DNA of 64,000 bases from Branchiostoma floridae (taxonomy: Eukaryota > Chordata > Leptocardii > Amphioxiformes > Branchiostomatidae): NCBI RefSeq assembly GCF_000003815.2, contig NC_049990.1, forward strand, positions 11,458,985 to 11,522,984, in the 5' to 3' direction. Positions 5,541-59,194 of the stretch are shown here, piece by piece (position 1 is the stretch's first letter; each line of letters starts with the position of its first letter). The translations under genes and the position numbers were made by a program. The notes below the pieces were generated by a model. The model was not told the DNA's origin and ran no database searches. It saw only the letters and a program-made list of their open reading frames with translations.

Positions 5541-5930
5541 CACCAAGTACAGCACAGCAAAATACCGCCAGGAGTCGCTGTTGAACATAAATGCGCATAT
5601 TGCATCTTTTGCCCAACTTGATATTCACTAGTTCTGTAAATAATCAGGACAGTAGATTAATTTTATAGTAAGTAATATTTGTAAATAGATTCTAGAATAG
5701 GTCTTTCGCAGAAAATCACACTGCTCCAATGTTAAGTCGAGCCAAGAAAAATACGCGGCTGTTTATTATGCAGATTAGGTCCGCAGATTTGAGGCATACG
5801 CCTGACCTACAAGTAGCATATAGAATTAGGATTTGACAGTTTTCACACATTTTGGCACTGATTATAATCATTATAGGGACAATGTAAATAGGAATAACAG
5901 ATTAGTAAACAGTCTGATTGTCAGAACGTC

Positions 5931-6412
5931 GTCCAACTTCGTCAGAAACGTAACCGTCCAACTTCGTCAGAAACGTAACCGTCCAACTTCGTCAGAAACG
6001 TAACCGTCCAACTTCGTCAGAAACCGTCCAACCTCGACAGAAACCGTCCAACTCCGTCAAAAGCCGTTCAACTCCGTCAAAAACCGTCCTACTTCGTCAG
6101 AAACCGTCCAACTTCGTCAGAAACCGTCCAACTTCGTCAGAAACCGTCCAACCTCGACAGAAACCGTCCAAAATCCGTCAGAAACCGTCCAACTCCGTCA
6201 AAAGCCGTCCAACTCCGTCAGAAACTGTCCGACTCCGTCAGAAACCGTCCAACATCGTCAGAAACCGTCCAACTCCGTCAGAAACCGTCCAGCTTCGTCA
6301 GAAACCGCCCAACTCCGTCAAAAACCGTCCAACTGCGTCAGAAACCGTCCAACTTCGTGAGAACTGAACCGTCCAACTGCGTTAGAAACCGCAACTTCGT
6401 CTCGTCCGTCCA
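5931..6412. repeat. Minisatellite, about 20-25 bp unit, more than 20 copies
   Basis: The unit GTCCAACTTCGTCAGAAACC is repeated almost without interruption. The first three copies carry an additional CGTAA and are 25 bp long; later copies are 20 bp with scattered substitutions (CTTCG to CTCCG, CCTCG or CTGCG). It follows the cyclase stop codon by about 390 bp and may be transcribed in its 3' untranslated region. Confidence 0.93.
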
Positions 6413-7278
6413 GACTATATAAAGCAATAGAGAACCTTGATCTATTGTAATTCAGACCATGTCACGCAAAGTAACGTCTGTAAAGATAATTTTATTTTCG
6501 TAAGATTGTACAGCAACAGCAGCATGATGCCTCTGAAGTACATGTTTGCATTTTGCACCGTTTGGTTATGCACAACTTTGATATTGTCATGGATCTAAGA
6601 GATGGACAAAAAGAAAGCCGTAATAAAAGTTTGTCCAAACAATGTTTGTTTTGGTCTTTTTTTAAGGCAAAAATGATCTTTTTGGTCCCTTTATGTGCCT
6701 GTGTTCAGCACATACATATAGACTTAGTATCCTATAAAAGGAATACTAAAATTTAGTACTCGTACGTGGTATTCCTACTACTAAGGCTATTCACGATAAT
6801 ATTAAGTCTATTGAACAAGAATGCATCCATCTAGATAACAACTTACGTCTTTTAGGCAACATATATATTTTTTTGAAAGTCATTTCGCACGTCATTCAAT
6901 GGATAGGCACTAAATATAACTTCATTTAAAGGATAGATACAAAACCTTACGTCACTCAAAGGCTAGACCTTAAACGTTCGTCATTCAAATGCTATGCGCT
7001 AGGCACAAAACATAACGTTACTTAATCCCGCTTTGGTACACATGCAGACATTTGTGTGAATAGAAGCTTTAATTTATTTCGTAGTCTCAAAGCCTTCAAA
7101 TCAAATTGTAACCTAAACTGAGCCAAAATCAAATTGTAACCCCTGAACTGACCCATACCAAAATGAAAAACAGTTGCTAGCCCTGACTGTCTTGATATAC
7201 TTAGCTAGCTATAGACAGGTAATTTTGCATGGCACAATGAACCATACACAATTGTACACACTCAAAGACATATACGTA

Positions 7279-15220: not shown

Positions 15221-16817
15221 GAAAGTCTTCTGAATAGTTTCACAAACAAATGTCTTCGACTAGTTTTAACAAAGACAGTGGCTTGGTAGTATAATTCAGT
15301 ACAACTGACGGGGTAGCTTGTAGCGATAGTAGATCAGCTAGCTACCCTCGCTGAATAATGGAGTCCAAATCACGATCCAATACCCCCTTACAAGGACGAT
15401 TACCGTTACCACTAAATCAAATTAAAACCCCATTAGTGAGTGGTGGGGGTCACACGATATGCCGATATGAGTGTCACTTCAATGCCACTCGTACGGCTAC
15501 AGCCTATGCGCGAGATATGACGACCAAAAAGTATTATTAATATTCAATATCTCTTCAGAACGCAGACAATTAGGGAATATGGCATATGACCCTTGTGTGA
15601 ATTTTCAAGATAGGCGTAGGCGTGCCTTTTGAATTTATGTCCCTGAGTTGTGGACTATATATACTTAAGCCAGGTATCACTACAGGTGGTCACTGAAAAT
15701 CATTACACAAAAGTAGCCAGCGACTCATAGATATTTATAGGATAAAATTCGAACTTTAAGAAAAAATAGCGTTGATCGTAAAAAAATAAGTAGTAAGAAT
15801 TAGTATTGAATCATATTTATGTTGAATCCACCTCCTCAAGAAATGGGGAAAAATTGACACATGCACAAAATTCGATCATGATATTTTCCTGTCGCGTCAG
15901 GGTAGAGATAATGCATGTGCGTTACCGTCAAAATCCGCAAGATGTCAACACATTCCAGCACGCTTTAACTTCACATGCCGTGTACATAACCCCTCAGGCT
16001 TTACTACACCAGTTACAACAACTTGCCGTCTTCTATTATCAATGAATACACAAGCTGTTTTCACTCCGTGCTCCATTCATTGTTCGCATATCTGAGAATG
16101 GACAAAGCTTTCACAATGGACAACCTTCACCTAGCCTGAGTATCGTCCTTCGTAGTGACCGCTGGCTCACGACTTTCGCTTGCTCCGGATCCGTGGTTAG
16201 CAAGTGAAAGTCGCGAGCCAGGGGTCACTACGGAGGATGATACTCAGGCTAACCTTCACCCACATGTGTAGTATTGTTCCAGAGGGTGTGGTGGCCACGT
16301 CTATACTTCTAGAGCGTTTAAGTACTGGTACAATATCGACCCGAAATTGTAGGGTTTACATCCACTTACAGGTTAGATTACCATGGCTAAAGCAACATCA
16401 AAGTTTTGTGATATCTTGTGTTGTATTGTTTGGATTGATCTTACAAGACACGGTTGAGTGTTTTCGTAGTGTGTTTGTGTCATGGTAGATGAAACACGGC
16501 CTCTTTTTATCAAGGACGTTTGCCGCTCTGTTCTTTAAGTTGGAAGGGACGTTAGGATGTAGCATTCAATTCAGGATTCAGTAAGAAATAAAACGATGAG
16601 TACAAAGGTATAAGAGTATTAGAAACAGTTGGGTGGAATGATCATAGTTTTCAGCGATGGCAGACAATTGATTGTACGCAAACATTAGAGATACATTTCA
16701 TTTATGATACTTTGGAGGTGAATTTTCTCACGGTTTCGTAGACTTTTACTTAGACCTACGTCATATTTTCAAACCGGGGCCGGGCCGGGCAGCTTTTGAA
16801 ACGAAAAGTATGATTGA
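15221..16817. other. Intergenic region upstream of BOK; no gene seen
   Basis: Apart from a fold-back element at 16132-16250 this stretch contains no recognised coding segment. The open frames are short, without domains or splice-supported extensions. Confidence 0.5.
16132..16250. mobile_element. Fold-back transposable element with 10-bp target duplication
   Basis: Arms 16132-16184 and 16199-16251 are near-perfect reverse complements, about 53 bp each, with a 14-bp loop. The ends read TAGCCTGAGTATC and its complement. The element is flanked on both sides by AACCTTCACC (16122-16131 and 16251-16260), a 10-bp direct repeat expected of a target-site duplication. It has no coding capacity, so it would be a non-autonomous DNA transposon; a 9-10-bp duplication suits a Mutator-like source. 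Confidence 0.85.
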
Positions 16818-16917
16818 NNNNNNNNNNNNNNNNNNNNNNNNNNNNNNNNNNNNNNNNNNNNNNNNNNNNNNNNNNNNNNNNNNNNNNNNNNNNNNNNNNN
16901 NNNNNNNNNNNNNNNNN
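16818..16917. other. Assembly gap (100 N)
   Basis: A run of exactly 100 unknown bases, the conventional size for a gap of unknown length. It cuts the coding exon at 16918-17165. Confidence 0.99.
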
Positions 16918-17165
16918 TTTATAGTGTCGGGCACGTCCAACGCGTACTGTCGTAAATCCAGTGCTGCGTCCTTCACATTCCTAAGCCAGTCCTTAACGCT
17001 GAACTCCCGCAGGAATGTCCGTACACGTGCCGATACACCTCTACCCTCCTCTCCCGTACAGTCTGTACTCTCCTCTCCTTCTCCGCCGTCAGAATTGTGC
17101 TCTTCCTCCTCGTCCAGAGAAGACAAGGCATGGTCTATGCCGTCTTCCCCTCCTATGGGATCCAT
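16918..17165 (-). CDS. Unrecognised protein, first coding exon, cut by an assembly gap
   Basis: The minus-strand frame starts at ATG 17165 and runs 82 codons to the gap without a stop. Residues 1-45 are very acidic (LDEEEEHNSDGGEGEES). From about residue 46 a basic amphipathic stretch follows (VRTFLREFSVKDWLRNVKDA), then LRQYALDVPDTI at the gap. Composition and codon use look like a real exon. An acidic N-terminus followed by an amphipathic helix would suit a membrane-associated protein, but that is a guess. I do not recognise the family. The frame does not supply a missing N-terminus for BOK, which has its own ATG. A minus-strand donor (GACTGGACAG before GTATGT, near 18331) could end an upstream untranslated exon. 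Confidence 0.55.
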
Positions 17166-20100
17166 TGCACAGTCTTACAAACGTGCTTCTGAAACAACAG
17201 TCACTCGTCAGAAAGCTCCCGTGTCGTCTGCTATCTTAGAATCCAGGCTGGTCCGCCAATACAACATTCCTCTCTGAAGATATGCCCTTCCTCTAGCCAT
17301 ATATAGTTGTCGGCGTTTTCACGCGTTGTTCTGTCTTTACTTGACTGCGATCTCTCTTGACCCAAGCTGTAAAACTACAATATGAACGCTCTGGCTGAAG
17401 GCCCATTTACTCAAGTGTAGGGGTAGCAAAAGATCACTGAAGTATACTAAACGTACAGCGCCCACTGGAGGTATTGAGCCTAATTAACGACATGTACTCA
17501 ACAGTTGTCGTCCATGTAGGGCTCGTATCAGAGTTGGTTATCTTGGCAAACAGTAGTTGTTATGTTTGTATAGCGTCAGGGAGTAAAGGTCGAGTGCTAC
17601 CTGGGTGGCACAGAGGTCACCAGAACTTTGGCCAAATGCTTATTTTGTTATGGCCCCCAAAAAGCTCAGACGACTAGGTTACAGTGTTCTTGTATATTTT
17701 TTCTGATGAGTATTTAGCTACACCCACTCGAATAGCGACTTTTAAACCACAACCATCAATTTCGGCTTGTCTTAAATATTTTATGGCCTGCTGATATATA
17801 AGCTACTGTACTGCAACGTGGCTTTCCGGTAGTCTGGGATGTTTTATTTTGCTTTGAAACGTACCATTTGAAACGTACCATTTGAAACGAACCATTTGAC
17901 ATTCCACACAAGACAAAGTATGTAAAATAATGCTACTATTTACACTGACAGATACAGAGTCATAGTAATGATTTTAACGGCCGCCGATTTCTTACATCGC
18001 CTTCATAGACATCATATCCAGAAACGTGGTTGTTACTTTTGTCCCGAAGAAAACGTCACGAAAATATGCTTAGATAGTGAGCTATAAAGCACTTTATCCT
18101 TCAAATGTGTATAGACCGCGAGCCAGAATTGTGGTTGGGTCTTGGGCTTGATCATTAAACATTTCTGGCGTAATAATTCAATATGAATCGATTTTAAGTC
18201 ACCTATGTAAACAGGTAAACATTCTACAGACCACAGAAACTAAAGATCCAGCCCTGTTCGACTTACCTGTAGAACGTGGTAGCAACAATCAACAAGAATA
18301 CCACCAACAGGTGTGTTTACTAGTGACATACCTGTCCAGTCTAGGGCGTCTAGGTGTTGTCCTCCCTCTTCTTGCGTGTTAGTACAACTTGTAAAAATCA
18401 AGCAAATCTCGTATCCGGTGGAACGCACGCATTTAGACACGCGACGCACGGTTCACGTAGATGTTATGTTGACCAACTGTCACTGTTTCAATTTTTCAAA
18501 CTCTTGTTGTTGGGAGCAACTGTCAATATTAGCCCCGTGCGGGGGTGTGGGGTGTGAGAAGGGTAAGTGATAAGATTCCCCTTGTATGGTGGGTGTCACA
18601 CTATTTTTTTTTTCAAGACAACGCCTTAAACCCGAATGTATCTCCAAAAAAGATACAATTATAAACTACAATGTCAAAGTATTTTGAATGTTGAAATATA
18701 TATCTAGTGTGAAACGTTCATAGAGTTCTTACACAAAATATTTGTTTAATTCTATATCGCCAGAAAAAAAAAGCAGCTACGATTTTGACCGTCTACAACC
18801 ATTAAATTGTAATCTCTTCAACATCGTTTAAAACACACATTGAAAATTGATATCTAAAATGTTTTGGGGCCTCAAAACTATTCAAGGAATGACTATGAAC
18901 GTACACGTGTAGTGGCTTACAAAGTATAACGCTGTGTTGAAATAGCAAACGCTTGTTAAATTCTTCCATCAGAACTGAACATAATTTTTGATAAGAGAAG
19001 TTCTAAACATGTGAGACGACCCCGGCTTGTGTTCTCCAAACGTATACCGGTACCGACACATTGTGGTTTTGCAAACGCTTGTTAAAATCTTCCATCAGAA
19101 CTGAACATAATTTTTGCTAAGAGAACTTTTAAACATGTGAGACGACCCCGGCTGGTGTTCTCCAAACGTATACCGACACATTGTGTACGGATCCGTGTGT
19201 AGGGCGGCCCTACCACCAGCTGCCACTAGAAAAGGTACATGGCACAAACAAAGGGCGATGTGTGGATATTAGTTTGATGTGTTTTCGTTTGGACGTAAAT
19301 TGTCCGGAAGGCATTTGAGGGCTGAGTCAATATGCAAGTAGCTCTTTAGTCGTGACAAATTTCAGATTTCGTACGGACGCTGTCACGATTTTTTTTTGAC
19401 GCACGATTTTAATAAGGAAATGACAACTGGCGATTGACAAGGATTAAGGAAAACTTTTTCCGTCACAAGTCGACTAAAATTCAAACTTTGTACGACACAT
19501 ACTAGTACTCAATTGTCGTCAGTTTGTCGCTGTATGACGTATGTGTCATGGGCTTAACAGACTTCACGTTAATGGGCAAGAAAGCATTTTTGGCACGGGT
19601 TTCGGAGTATACAGAGGGAATATACAGAAGAAAGTGTCCGAAATGTTTATTGGCACGTGCCTACGGTAGCCTGACTAAAATCGTGGGAGAGGTTGTCACA
19701 ATAACACAAGCTAGTGCCTACGGCCGCAACTATTGCTGCAGTGCTGCACATTGTCCGCAAGGTGGCGCCTCTTAAACATTGCACATAAATGTGGCATTGC
19801 TATTCTGGAAATGTTAAAATAACATTGAAATGATTTGACCTTGTTCTATTGCTTTTGTGGTCTATTTGTTGTTTTGTCACTTCACTCGTTTTCTGTAAGC
19901 TACACATAATAGATTTTCCAAAACATAGAAGCAGACGTAGCCATAGACAAAATATTCACCTTTATTCTCACTGAGAACATTTTACTCTTACTTTACTATA
20001 CTATACAATTAAGTAATTACCACCTCCAGTGATACTGTATACTGCATAAGAATAGCAAGGATGAAATCTCATAATTCTAAGCTGGCAAGCAAAAATGGCT

Positions 20101-20562
20101 ATATTGTGTCGGGCTTTATTTGAACTGAGACCAATTGTAACAATTCAGAAAAAAACGATAACATTTTGTCCCTTAAGCCTTCATGTGTCAGTATGTGTTT
20201 GTATTGGATCGTGGGTACTAAAGGGTAGATCCATATGTAATAGTAAATCAACACTTCAAAGGGTTGAATTACTGGCAAGCTGGACAATTACACTTTAAGA
20301 AGAGCTATATACAGAAAGCTAACAGAATCTGAAAGCACTTTCAATACTTGAGGCACTTGCACAAAGTTCCAGTTCTATCCACCTCCTTACACTTGCCAAA
20401 TATTGTTTTTCTATGCACTATAAAAGCCACTTGAAAGGTCCTTAAATGTTTAAACCAAATTAATCCATCTCTATGAAGGATATTGCTGCACAGTGTAAAC
20501 AATAGCACTAGAAGACAACATTCTGTTCTGTTATTTCCTGTTTTGACCGTGATATCAATACA
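17166..20562. other. Intergenic region; tandem duplication, no gene seen
   Basis: The left part should hold the promoter of the unrecognised gene ending at 17165. The right end should hold the EPSTI1 3' untranslated region, with candidate polyadenylation signals on the minus strand at 20115-20120 and 19961-19966. Open frames at 18240-18570 and 19524-19775 show no recognisable domain. Confidence 0.5.
18948..19182. repeat. Two-copy tandem duplication, about 120 bp unit
   Basis: The segment starting GCAAACGCTTGTTAAA at about 18948 is repeated from about 19072 with only a few differences, ending in the same GTATACC and CGACACATTGTG. The first copy has an additional CGGTAC before the end. Confidence 0.92.
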
Positions 20563-23432
20563 CTAAACTTTAAGTAAGGCAATAGCTTCATCTAAGTCAC
20601 CATCAGTGCTTTGTAGGATTTCTGACAACATCTGTATGTCATAATTGGGGTAAAGGTCACGTAGTTCTGCAAGTGGATTTTCCTCCCCCTCAAAAGCTCC
20701 CTCCTCCTGCTCCTCTTCGACTACTTCCTTTCTGTCATGGCTGCCACCTGTAGGCAGAGATGTCAGTGTTTCGTCATTTTTTGTCATGTGCAAAATAACA
20801 ATCAAGTAATGCTGTTATTTAGTTCATTTGTGTATAGTATTGCCATGTATCTCAATTGGTAGTAGTCTCACTGTTGAGCTCCTGGTTCCAACAAGTACGT
20901 TCAGGTAACTGCGAGACCCTGTTTCGAATCCAGGGAAGATTATCCTGTTTGGAGCTGCACTGTCTTTCGGAAGGGACGTAAAATGGTGTGTGTGTGTGTG
21001 TGTGTGTGGTCTGTGTTCAAGGAGGTGCCTCGAATATGTTACAACAACCTCATTACTTAGATAGGTATCTACTGTGTGTAACAATACAACATGGTGACAG
21101 TTGTACTACTACTACTATGGTATATGAACAACTACCTGCAGTACTCCTGACACCTGCATGGGGTCTCCCTCCCTTCTGTTGTGCCTCCAGTCTATCCAGA
21201 AAAGCCTGATTCTTTCTGCAGGAGAGAAAAACAAAATTTCATTGGCATATAAAAGAACATGGCACCTATAACATCTCTTAAAACTACAACTATAACAAAA
21301 GTGTCCAGTTTTGGACAAATATTTGGAACATGAAATGCTGAAATCAAAAATAGCAAAACTAACAATGAGGATTGTAATTGACACTTACTGTCTGTGGTCT
21401 TCTGCCCACTTCTTTTCTCTTTCCTTGGTCTCTTTCTTTTGTCTTACTTCTTTCTTCTGAGCCTGGGATGACATGAAAAATAAAAATTTTCTTTTGATAT
21501 ACCATCATGTATGGCATATCAAAATTTGAACAATGAAACAAACAAACAAACAAACAAGCAAATAAATAGTTATTCATATCTGTAGTATCTTCTTTATAGA
21601 AAATGTTATATTTGTTATTGTTATTGTTTATTTGCTATACAATAGTTCATTTATGCTACATTCTCAACCTTTCTATGTACATGTACTTGTGAAATACTGT
21701 TATGCAGTGCTATGCAGTGCCATATAATTCTGCAAGGTGGGGTTCCTGCATATTGAAACCAGGAACATTACTGTTGGGATACTTAATGTGCTTATCTTAT
21801 ATCACTTTCCTACCTGTCCTCTGTAGTAGTCCTTTTTCATCTGTATTTGTTTATCTTCCTGTTGTTTCTGGGTTTGTCTATATTGTTCTCTCTTGTCCTG
21901 AAAATGTAAATACTATGAAATCACTTTCCACGCACTGGCAAAATAATATGTAACTAAGAAAAAGCCTTCTGAAAATACAATGTATTAGCATTAGAATGGA
22001 AACTAGAAGTTCTGAGAATACCGTGCACTCTTTGCCCTACTGCGTCCAGCTTTTAATTTTTTTGGTAACACTCATTGTTTGGGAGCGACACATTTATTTT
22101 CACATGTTATTTTGAGCTTACAAATATAACGTTACAACAACATTTTCATCTCACGGGAAAGGGCAGCGAAAACCTCCTTTGGGCTTAATTAATTTTCAAG
22201 ATCTGACTGCCTTGGTCTGCCAAAAATACCAGCTGGCACCCAGGGTCCTGGAGACAGACCTGCTGTCATCTGATGTACTCACCCTCATGTTCATCTTCTG
22301 CCTCCTGTCCTCCTGTGCTTGTTGTCTCCTGACTTCATCTTCAGGTATGTTTGGTCCACCTGTATATTTACAACAGGCTCTAACTTTATCCTTTTGTAAA
22401 TTTTTAACAAAATTTTAACATGGAATTATGAAAAACATCAAAATGGATGTGACATACTGCAATTCTATTCAAAGGCTGACCCTCAATCCAGCCTTTAAGA
22501 TAACATGTAACACTTACAGATTTGTCTTGTGATTTTCATTGAAAAAACAAACAAACATCATAACACAGCTTACCTACAGTACCAACATACGAGAAGTTTG
22601 CAGGTCTTCTGCTCTCTTTGTGCTTCTGGTAGGCTTCCAGTTCTTTCTGTCCTTCTGTTGATTTGAATATATAGAAGACAGACTGCATCATTGCATTGTG
22701 AAATACTTTTAACCTGCAGCTGCTTGCAACTTTCAAATAACTTAACAAGGCTAAATTGAAGGTGAGACTAAGAGATTAAAGTGAAGACCTATTGTGCACA
22801 TTTGAAATAATGTTGTGATTTCTTTAATATTGTTATATAGTTTTTACACACAGAAAATGAAAAATGAAACTTAACACTTGTTTTAAAGATGGTTTGAATA
22901 TCTTACGTTTTAAGACACTCTGCCTTTTCTTCTCATTTGGTACCACCAAGGTGTAGCCGTCTCCTCTGGAAAAAAAATTAACCCCCAAAGATCAGTTGAG
23001 ACATGAACGTCACAGTTTCAACAACAAACGGAGTTACCGGTAATAGAAAAATTCTCCGTCAAATCATATAGCTTTAGATAGATATCAACATAATATTTGT
23101 CTTGAAAATGATTCATGACACTTGGCGTCTGAGTCTATGCATGATGACTTTCGAAACCTGTAATTTCGCTCACACCTTTTGAACCTTTCGTCGGGTATTG
23201 CGTTGCCATTTCCCTCAGTCTGCTGACCAGTAGCCTCCTGGTGTCCAGTTCCTCCGGACACAGTTCTGTCCCTCGGTCTGGCCCCCTGTCCTATGTCTCG
23301 GTAGCTCGGTCCCTGGTTACCAGGCGCCCCCCTCCCCCTTCCTCTCCCCACACCGCGGCCAGGACTCGCCCCTTCCATACCCGGACGCTGTTGTTTAGCG
23401 TTCGTAGGCCGCACAGTGAACGATCGACTCAT
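20563..23432 (-). CDS. EPSTI1: EPSTI1-like coiled-coil protein with C-terminal CUE-like domain (complete)
   Basis: Eight minus-strand exons join in frame into 298 residues: 23176-23432, 22907-22965, 22574-22654, 22283-22359, 21814-21897, 21389-21462, 21136-21215, 20563-20747. Residues 1-85 are Gly/Arg-rich (GRGVGRGRGRG). The EPSTI1 signature follows: GDGYTLVVPNEKKRQ (87-101) matches the vertebrate YTLIAPN block. A charged coiled coil spans about 107-211, and KNQAFLDRLEAQQKGG (212-227) matches the vertebrate NNAFLDRL block. The last exon is acidic, then NPLAELRDLYPNYDIQMLSE through AIALLKV (261-298), which fits a CUE domain: LYP in place of MFP and a terminal di-leucine. Human EPSTI1 is interferon-induced and not known for a CUE domain. 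An upstream in-frame ATG at 23594 would add about 54 residues; 23432 is preferred because the additional part looks non-conserved. Confidence 0.85.
20846..21020 (+). mobile_element. tRNA-derived SINE in an EPSTI1 intron
   Basis: An A-box-like TCTCAATTGGTAGTAGTC (near 20848-20868) is followed about 55 bases later by the B box GTTTCGAATCC (20921-20931). After that comes a conserved-looking GTCTTTCGGAAGGGACGT block and a (GT)n tail. It is inserted between the last two EPSTI1 exons, antisense to the gene. Confidence 0.72.
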
Positions 23433-31383: not shown

Positions 31384-33445
31384 TCACTTCTTGTCTCCAG
31401 GTTTAGGAATATGTGACAAAATGTGAGCCTTGAGTTTGGGCATGTTGACCTGTTCCTTCTTACACACGTGACATCTGAAAAAAAAGAGTTGAGGACAGTT
31501 GATGAAATAAAGAGTGTAAGGGACAAGTATATACATTCATATTAGCATGTAACTATGAAGGAGGAAAGAAATAAAAGATGAAAAAATTGCTGATTTGGCA
31601 GTTTCACGTAGTCAAAATTAATCCAAGGAATCGTAAAAAAAAGAATGATTTTCTTCTTAATCTTATTTTCATCGTTTGTCAAAAAAAATTTATTTCTAAA
31701 GTACCTTACTTAAAAAAACTACAATTTTCAAAAGATTTAGAGCAAGTGAATAGAAAACTGTATAATACTAAAACTCATAGCTACATAGGTAACGTTACAT
31801 GTATGTGCAGTATAAAAGGTACAAATGGATGAATAGCATTACCTAGTGGGATGCATACCTCATTGGGGGTTTGCCAAAAATGCCTACCTTAGTGGATCTT
31901 TCAAGCGTTCATTTCTTGATCCTTTGTCTGCTATTTTCCCTTCTTTTTCTAATTCTTCCATAACATCTGAAAATGAAAGATGGACATAATGGATTATTCC
32001 ATTCATAAATCAAAGAAGGGGTGTCCTTTGTTAATATTGCCATCTATGTACTGTTCTAAACTTGCAATTTTTTCATCATGAAAAGTTCATTTGAACACCC
32101 CTACACCTGTTTAATGGATTAGCCCCAAGACATTTTATTCTTGCATACTGTAATTCTAGAAACTAAAAATACTTTAAATCTGAAACTCGGTGTCATTACT
32201 TCTGAAGTTTTGTTGTGACCTTGCCAAAATCACTAATGTGTCTTTCTTGTTTCACTACTGTACTACATAAAATCTGCAAGCGTGAATCTAGAATGCTGCT
32301 AAAGACTAGGAAAAGACCCTATTTTCCAACAAATGTAGAATAAAATCATTGCAAAAGTGATGGAATTTACCGTACAGACCTGTAGAGTCTATGAAGTAGT
32401 CTGTTGTGAAGGAGTTCCAATGTTTCTTATGCTTCAAGCAGGGAGAGTCAAAATCTTGACTGATGACATGGAGATGTAAGTGACTGTAAGAGAAATGTAG
32501 ATTGAACAGAATTATATTAAGATATTCTTTGTGGATCCTAATATCAAGATTAACAGAACACCATCACATTTCAATTATTTGTTCCCCCTCCTAAATTTTT
32601 TTATATCCTTAGAATATCCAACCCCTCCCCTTGTGAGATTATCTGACTGTATATTGACCAGTGTACTACAGAATACTTACTACTCACCTCATACTGGGGA
32701 TGGCATGGTAGCCCAGGCGGAAGGACAGATGTTTGGCATCTTCTGTTCTGAAATGTTAGAAATCAAAACAATGCAAAAGATGAACATCAACAAAAACGTA
32801 CTTTCATATGAAAGCTATATTAGCTATAGTAATTTCACACAAATTTGCAGTGGTTTTATCTCAGTGTTTAAAAAAACAAACCTATGGCTTTAAGCCATTA
32901 TGTAGACAATGCATACATGGGAGACATATTTGTCATGAAAAAGTCATGAAAATAAAACCACTAAGAAAGTTTCACAATTTACAGCACAACATACTGTACT
33001 TACTTGTCTATAAGCTCCTGTCCCTTCTTGTGCATGTGTTTGAGAAGGTCCAACTGTTTTGCTGACACAGCCTTTAGACTGGATATGTTCTCCTTAGGTA
33101 AAACTAACCAGTGGTACCTGGCCTGAGGATGGAATAAGAATAAATACAATAACGTTAATCTTTTCAATGATCCAACTGCTCATGCACACACATAAACAAA
33201 ACACATCTGTAACATACAAATAAACACACACATACAAAGACACACACTTAGTGACGTACACACACACACACCAAGGAGCTTTTATAAAAGCTCCTTGCAC
33301 ACACACACAAACACGTGCACATACACACACGCGTACATGTGCACACACCTACCTACCTACCTAGTCCCTTGACCTCCAGGTCGTTGGGGGGACAAGGTAG
33401 ACATGAAGATCGAGAGTTGCCTCCAGGTTCGTCTGTGCGCGCGCG

Positions 33446-33492
<47 letters not shown>

Positions 33493-33751
33493 AGACGAGA
33501 CGAAAACAAAGACAAGAGTTGGTGACGTGCCCTTTGACCTGACAACAAACCTTTGGGTATTTATCCTTGATAATGACCACTTTATCGTCCGAGTCGACCT
33601 TCAGTGCGGGATCCTCCATGGATGACAGCAGGCCCATGCTCCAGTGACCTTTCTTGGCCGGTTGAGCCGCTGTTTTCGCAGCTCCATCGGCTAATTTTCG
33701 CTTTTGTGCGTTCATCATCACAGAAAAGGCATTCCCTTTTGCCGCCATCAT
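31384..33751 (-). CDS. APTX: Aprataxin, HIT domain plus C2H2 zinc finger, without FHA (complete)
   Basis: Six minus-strand exons join in frame into 217 residues: 33551-33751, 33004-33122, 32688-32747, 32380-32483, 31888-31966, 31384-31474. The ATG at 33751 follows an in-frame TAG 18 bases upstream, so this exon begins the protein. Residues 1-35 are Lys/Ala-rich with [12 protein letters not shown] starts at [23 protein letters not shown] (68-76), [12 protein letters not shown] and [14 protein letters not shown] follow, with the catalytic HxHxH at 128-132. The zinc finger is C189-x2-C192-x12-H205-x3-H209. The family removes AMP from abortive 5'-adenylated DNA ends in the nucleus. Vertebrate aprataxin has an N-terminal FHA domain for binding XRCC1 and XRCC4; this model has none, as in fungal and several invertebrate forms. 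The first intron holds an alternating GC/CA tract. Confidence 0.93.
33180..33350. repeat. CA-rich microsatellite with a 26-bp perfect palindrome
   Basis: Imperfect (CA)n over about 170 bp in aprataxin intron one. At 33272-33297 it is interrupted by a perfect palindrome with half-site CAAGGAGCTTTTA. Confidence 0.9.
33435..33491. repeat. Alternating (GC)n(CA)n tract with Z-DNA potential
   Basis: About 16 bases of GC dinucleotides run directly into about 38 bases of CA dinucleotides with no break in purine-pyrimidine alternation. It lies in the first aprataxin intron. Confidence 0.92.

Positions 33752-37790: not shown

Positions 37791-59194
<21,404 letters not shown>

Follow-up and report, generated by a model that had tools for sequence, protein, structure and literature searches.

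The window, as the whole stretch analysed here is called, comprises 64,000 bases of a lancelet genome (C12:11458985-11522984) within an assembly of 513,431,437 bases in 431 contigs. It carries an EPSTI1-like gene of eight exons on the minus strand, at 23432-20563, the last exon of which encodes a CUE-like domain, together with neighbouring genes, open frames and repeats. An RCBTB1/2-like gene lies on the plus strand at 37815-59188, about 14 kb from the EPSTI1-like gene; it was located with a provisional query sequence, and RCC1 repeats were assigned to it by Pfam. An aprataxin-like gene occupies 32375-33649 on the minus strand, its first frame matching a solved aprataxin with an E-value of 1.5e-8; further exons were found with a provisional query, and an additional weak piece lies at 31411-31479 (E 0.22). 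Also on the minus strand, an open frame at 16761-17174 encodes an acidic protein start, MDPIGGEDGID..., and runs into an assembly gap; no Pfam family matches it at E up to 0.01. Five neighbouring frames were compared with Pfam at this same threshold, and a family was found for the RCC1 frame and for none of the other four (the query at 46160-46543 being approximate at its start).

Two repetitive features were recorded on the low-numbered side of these genes. A tandem array at 5925-6432, built mainly of a 20-base unit, keeps all three forward frames open over long stretches. At 16132-16251 an inverted repeat with two 53-base arms, 91% complementary and separated by a 14-base spacer, forms a hairpin and is perhaps a small mobile element.

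Structure of the EPSTI1-like gene

The exon structure was obtained by calculation (Table 1). The joined exons, separated by seven GT-AG introns, give a frame of 298 codons, that is 298 amino acids followed by a TAG stop, with no internal stop. The initial annotation had placed the terminal exon in phase and read its end as LDEAIALLKV, and the joined frame bears this out: exon 8 encodes NPLAELRDLYPNYDIQMLSE...LDEAIALLKV.

Table 1. Coordinates, in window numbering, of the EPSTI1-like gene, its candidate poly(A) signal and the CUE profile match
Feature	Position	Strand	Content and basis
Exon 1 (coding part)	23176..23432	(-)	Start codon (ATG) 23432-23430; residues 1 to 86, an N-terminus rich in Gly and Arg; codon 86 split
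Exon 2	22907..22965	(-)	EPSTI1-like core begins, RGDGYTLVVPN...; from the frame and comparison with the 307-letter human EPSTI1 form
Exon 3	22574..22654	(-)	EPSTI1-like core, KELEAYQKHKE; from the frame and comparison with the 307-letter human EPSTI1 form
Exon 4	22283..22359	(-)	Charged region begins, probably coiled-coil (type inferred, not computed)
Exon 5	21814..21897	(-)	Charged, probably coiled-coil region (type as for exon 4)
Exon 6	21389..21462	(-)	Charged, probably coiled-coil region (type as for exon 4)
Exon 7	21136..21215	(-)	NQAFLDRLEAQ; counterpart NNAFLDRLQGK in the 307-letter human EPSTI1 form
Exon 8	20563..20747	(-)	Acidic linker and entire CUE-like domain; stop TAG at 20565-20563
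Pfam CUE (PF02845) match, 33 residues	20572..20670 (C12:11479556-11479654)	(-)	Protein residues 264-296, profile positions 6-38 of 42
Candidate poly(A) signal (AATAAA) for the terminal exon	20115..20120	(-)	Starts 443 bases past the stop

The gene looks single-copy in its own genome. The whole protein gave eight matches there, all of them its own exons (all 26 candidates scored), the segment encoded by exon 1 matches only itself, and the DNA of exon 8 has a single match. In intron 7, at 20843-20995, a copy of a dispersed repeat was found with 74-85% identity to 39 other places on many contigs (among the best 40 of 385 candidates), and a tRNA-like box recognized by eye only suggests a SINE.

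Probable relationship of the protein body to EPSTI1

Pfam gave no family above its cut-off that names the body of the protein, and a search of NCBIfam returned nothing useful. Viral contigs were also searched for relatives and none was found, as expected for an animal gene. The identity of the gene was approached by comparison with human EPSTI1, for which a provisional 307-letter sequence, one form of the protein, was used. In BLAST the lancelet body matched this form with 46.2 bits over residues 85-220 and with 38.5 bits over residues 164-232; with the human form as query the match scored 44.7 bits, whereas 200 shuffles searched in the same direction gave 23.9 bits at most. Since shuffling loses the periodicity of a coiled coil, the charged part of this match weighs less. 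The YTL..PN..R region ahead of the charged repeats scored 69 against this provisional human form, the maximum of 5000 shuffles being 54. The lancelet protein and the human form used share the YTL..PN motif, the charged core and the FLDRL end segment, and differ in an extra internal stretch that the human form has ahead of its second FL..L segment.

The two proteins differ further at the C-terminus. The CUE tail scored no better against the provisional human form than many of its own shuffles (430 of 1000 score equally well), and thus has no counterpart in that form. An EPSTI1-like body and human isoforms with a different ending had both been proposed at the outset; the first is provisionally supported by the 307-letter form (44.7 bits), and the second likewise extends to that one form.

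Linkage is consistent with orthology to EPSTI1. In addition to the RCBTB-like gene of the window, one of six RB_A matches lies on the same contig at C12:15664049 (the other five are on C6), and NUFIP1 has a single match in the genome, at C12:19015902. The human genes RB1, RCBTB1, RCBTB2, NUFIP1 and EPSTI1 are all located in 13q14. From the provisional human sequence and this linkage, the gene is most readily taken as a lancelet relative of EPSTI1.

The CUE-like tail encoded by exon 8

The tail was matched by the Pfam CUE profile with 22.7 bits (E 7.9e-5) when its 41 residues were submitted alone, above the cut-off of 21.1, and with 17.4 bits (E 0.0034), below that cut-off, when the entire 298-residue protein was used; the 41 residues were excised on a prior lead, and the whole-protein figure is the more cautious of the two. 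A CUE match had been anticipated for the C-terminal residues, and it was found with this reservation as to score. When the tail was scanned with Pfam together with 60 shuffled versions of it (61 sequences), CUE matched the tail and none of the shuffles. A scan of the whole genome with the CUE profile gave 14 places at E up to 10, of which eight exceed the cut-off, and exon 8 ranks eighth with 20.8 bits (21.2 with its frame neighbours; E 0.199 for one genome). The places ranked above it include what we take, from their letters, to be clear TOLLIP- and gp78-type CUEs. The same scan of 14 control genomes gave a match in one, below the cut-off.

A CUE profile was also built from the same genome, using seven of the 13 other places (L015, L016, L018, L019, L021 and L023 were excluded as partial or of another type). 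This profile gave 16.7 bits for the tail and 11.8 for the entire protein; the best of 2000 shuffled tails reached 7.3 bits, so that none attained the score of the tail, and 984 other reading frames from the window scored 7.9 at most. Alignment of the tail by hhalign with an earlier version of the profile, which contained one wrong letter, gave a probability of 92.3. Among solved structures, the best phmmer match of the exon 8 peptide was SMARCAD1 (E 0.03), and seven of the 12 matches at E up to 10 were CUE- or ubiquitin-associated (SMARCAD1, USP25 and USP28 with two each, TOLLIP with one), the other five being unrelated; with the entire protein as query TOLLIP came first (E 0.43).

The fold of the exon 8 peptide was calculated with AlphaFold2 from the single sequence. 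The best model has a mean pLDDT of 78 and a pTM of 0.52 (74.8 to 78.0 in pLDDT over five models), and the blocks spanning residues 21-60 average 82, 92, 91 and 86. Three helices are predicted, at residues 24-31, 37-46 and 51-58. As a control, a TOLLIP-type CUE of the same genome was folded identically (pLDDT from 69.9 to 90.1 among the five models, 90 in the top one). Counted from the proline of the turn (P), the second helix extends from P+4 to P+13 in both models and the third from P+18 to P+25 in the tail and to P+26 in the control, and the first starts two residues earlier in the control than in the tail.

Foldseek comparison of the tail model with the PDB listed 90 matches with E-values of up to 10, all of them above 0.001; domains so small seldom reach strong Foldseek E-values. 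The top match is the human TOLLIP CUE (1wgl), which by the title of the structure lies in the C-terminal part of TOLLIP (E 0.51, probability 0.99, 32% identity, with 38 columns superposed at an rmsd of 1.6 A). The Cue2 CUE from its ubiquitin complex (1otr) superposes with an rmsd of 0.9 A over 34 columns at 35% identity, and CUE1 of SMARCAD1 at 0.9 A. The best 50 of the 90 matches contain the CUEs of CUEDC1, SMARCAD1, ASCC2, Cue1 and Cue2 with ubiquitin, as well as UBA domains and also unrelated proteins. The three-helix fold that had been suggested for the tail is thus recovered by prediction, with TOLLIP as its closest structural match, and the tail is likely to adopt a CUE-like fold. The CUE-like character of exon 8, as first observed, is confirmed.

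Possible roles of the tail: ubiquitin, VCP and other partners

Ubiquitin binding by CUE domains depends on two essential motifs, MFP (variants hFP and haP) and LL (variants iL and ih), which in Cue2p are M19-F20-P21 and L46-L47 (PMC6688830). The turn of the lancelet tail is LYP and fits the haP variant; 1wgl has MFP, SMARCAD1 CUE1 and CUE2 have an aromatic-proline turn like that of the tail, and a CUE match below the cut-off in the lancelet genome has MYP. The second motif departs from the canonical register. L46 and L47 of Cue2p lie at P+25 and P+26 from P21, whereas the di-leucine of the tail lies one residue early, at P+24 and P+25, and the canonical column, aligned without gaps, reads L25-K26. 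A terminal di-leucine in canonical register was accordingly rejected, so that of the CUE pattern originally read into the tail the turn stands and the di-leucine is displaced by one column. The same L-K pair occupies this column in SMARCAD1 CUE2, which also shares LKV with the tail, and in L020, and the gp78-type CUE of the lancelet genome (L012), once a one-residue gap is introduced to align it, has I-L at P+24 and P+25 followed by E at P+26; the TOLLIP-type L011 differs from the tail in having both MFP and a canonical LL. As SMARCAD1 CUE2, L020 and L012 depart at the LL column, LL at P+25/P+26 is not strict for the CUE fold, and since L012 has no hydrophobic residue at P+26, the spacing by itself leaves room for a functional LL in the tail. 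Judged by the predicted fold and one of the two motifs, the tail may bind ubiquitin, with a likelihood of little over one half. The proposal of an EPSTI1-like protein with a ubiquitin-binding CUE tail is in this way partly supported.

As to L020 itself, it is a CUE-like frame elsewhere in the genome (positions 1501-1602 of locus L020), below the cut-off, and its MYP and L-K make its departures much like the two of the tail.

EPSTI1 is interferon-induced and its product is reportedly a cofactor of VCP in the clearance of activated STAT1. Mouse Epsti1 loses VCP binding when residues 71-180 (the coiled coil) are deleted and binds STAT1 less well when residues 181-314 (the C-terminus) are removed, and Epsti1 knockdown decreases the VCP-pSTAT1 interaction and increases ubiquitinated pSTAT1 (PMC11234217). 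EPSTI1 and VCP have also been tied to IkBa degradation and NF-kB in a study cited in PMC4469844, and their interaction and NF-kB are cited in PMC8195604; another EPSTI1 paper (PMC4295872) does not mention VCP. The passages of these four papers considered here describe no ubiquitin-binding part in EPSTI1. A literature search with mostly open-access coverage found EPSTI1 and 'CUE domain' together nowhere (an automatic annotation of the tail may exist), and the matches listed (20 of 257 and 20 of 658) included no paper on EPSTI1 in invertebrates. Two papers mention ubiquitin binding alongside EPSTI1, once each; one mentions amphioxus alongside EPSTI1, and three mention amphioxus alongside a CUE domain.

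Bifunctional p97 cofactors combine ubiquitin-interacting and p97-binding domains (PMC5559722), and gp78/AMFR, one such cofactor, unites a CUE domain with a motif that binds p97 (PMC2811200, PMC5559722), a layout that matches the adaptor proposed here. We consider it marginally probable that the single-copy lancelet relative of EPSTI1, with its CUE-like C-terminal domain, is a two-handed p97/VCP adaptor that reads ubiquitin. By analogy with mouse Epsti1, the charged and probably coiled-coil core would dock on VCP; the CUE tail, held on an acidic linker at the extreme C-terminus, would recognise ubiquitin on a presumed client, and ubiquitinated clients would thereby be brought to the VCP segregase. 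Unlike the lancelet protein, gp78/AMFR is a membrane E3 ligase that carries a VIM; in the lancelet protein, pattern searches gave no VIM, SHP or VBM-like motif. A lancelet EPSTI1 relative of this kind would supply the missing ubiquitin-binding half of a VCP cofactor. Tentative, and somewhat doubtful, is the extension of this model to the ancestral chordate EPSTI1 as a p97 adaptor with a CUE tail, the last exon of which would have been replaced in mammals, so that the ubiquitin reader was lost and a new C-terminus, binding STAT1 directly, chose the substrates.

The CUE module may instead leave ubiquitin unread and bind a coiled coil, its own or that of a partner, for dimerisation, autoinhibition or the holding of a fixed partner, which we regard as unlikely. 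SMARCAD1 CUE1 keeps both motifs and prefers the KAP1 coiled coil, with a Kd of about 158 nM against about 952 uM for mono-ubiquitin, and which further CUE domains take ligands other than ubiquitin cannot be predicted (PMC6688830). SMARCAD1 is the best sequence match of the tail among solved structures, its CUE1 superposes closely on the model and its CUE2 shares the L-K column, and the EPSTI1-like protein itself contains a long charged region, probably coiled-coil. Unlike the lancelet protein, SMARCAD1 is a chromatin remodeller. Against this reading, the LYP turn fits a variant listed for CUE domains, and ubiquitin was previously the sole CUE ligand known, ubiquitin-homology domains aside (PMC6688830). 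If the tail did bind a coiled coil, it would add to the cases in which a CUE domain has taken on a different ligand.

A further alternative concerns the joining of exon 8 to the gene. Errors of gene prediction are frequent in lancelets and many domain combinations have been argued to be artefacts (PMC4967905), and a repeat copy sits in intron 7; exon 8 could then be misjoined, its CUE-like frame being part of another gene or left unspliced to exon 7, and the fusion an artefact of the raw genome. This is very unlikely in view of the canonical splice sites (donor of exon 7 GTAGTTGT, acceptor of exon 8 CTCTGCCTACAG), the branch-like CTGAC close to the acceptor and the phase kept across the join. 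Without exon 8, reading from exon 7 continues into intronic stop codons; AATAAA, ATTAAA, AGTAAA and TATAAA are all absent between the end of exon 7 at 21136 and the stop at 20563, and AATAAA is present beyond exon 8 at 20120, with additional copies beginning at 19966 and 19651. Exon 8 as a separate gene was rejected as less likely on the same grounds.

It is likewise quite improbable that the tail is a fortuitous amphipathic helical segment, or else a functionless, degenerate fold of the UBA-like type: its CUE scores lie close to the curated cut-off, the best Foldseek E-value is 0.51 and the helical hydrophobic moments are no better than shuffled (1938, 513 and 3386 of 5000 shuffles reach the values of the three helices), but none of the 60 or of the 2000 shuffles reaches it, the other frames of the window stay at 7.9 bits against 16.7, and a single sequence sufficed for a three-helix model in which helices two and three lie within one residue of the borders of a TOLLIP-type CUE.
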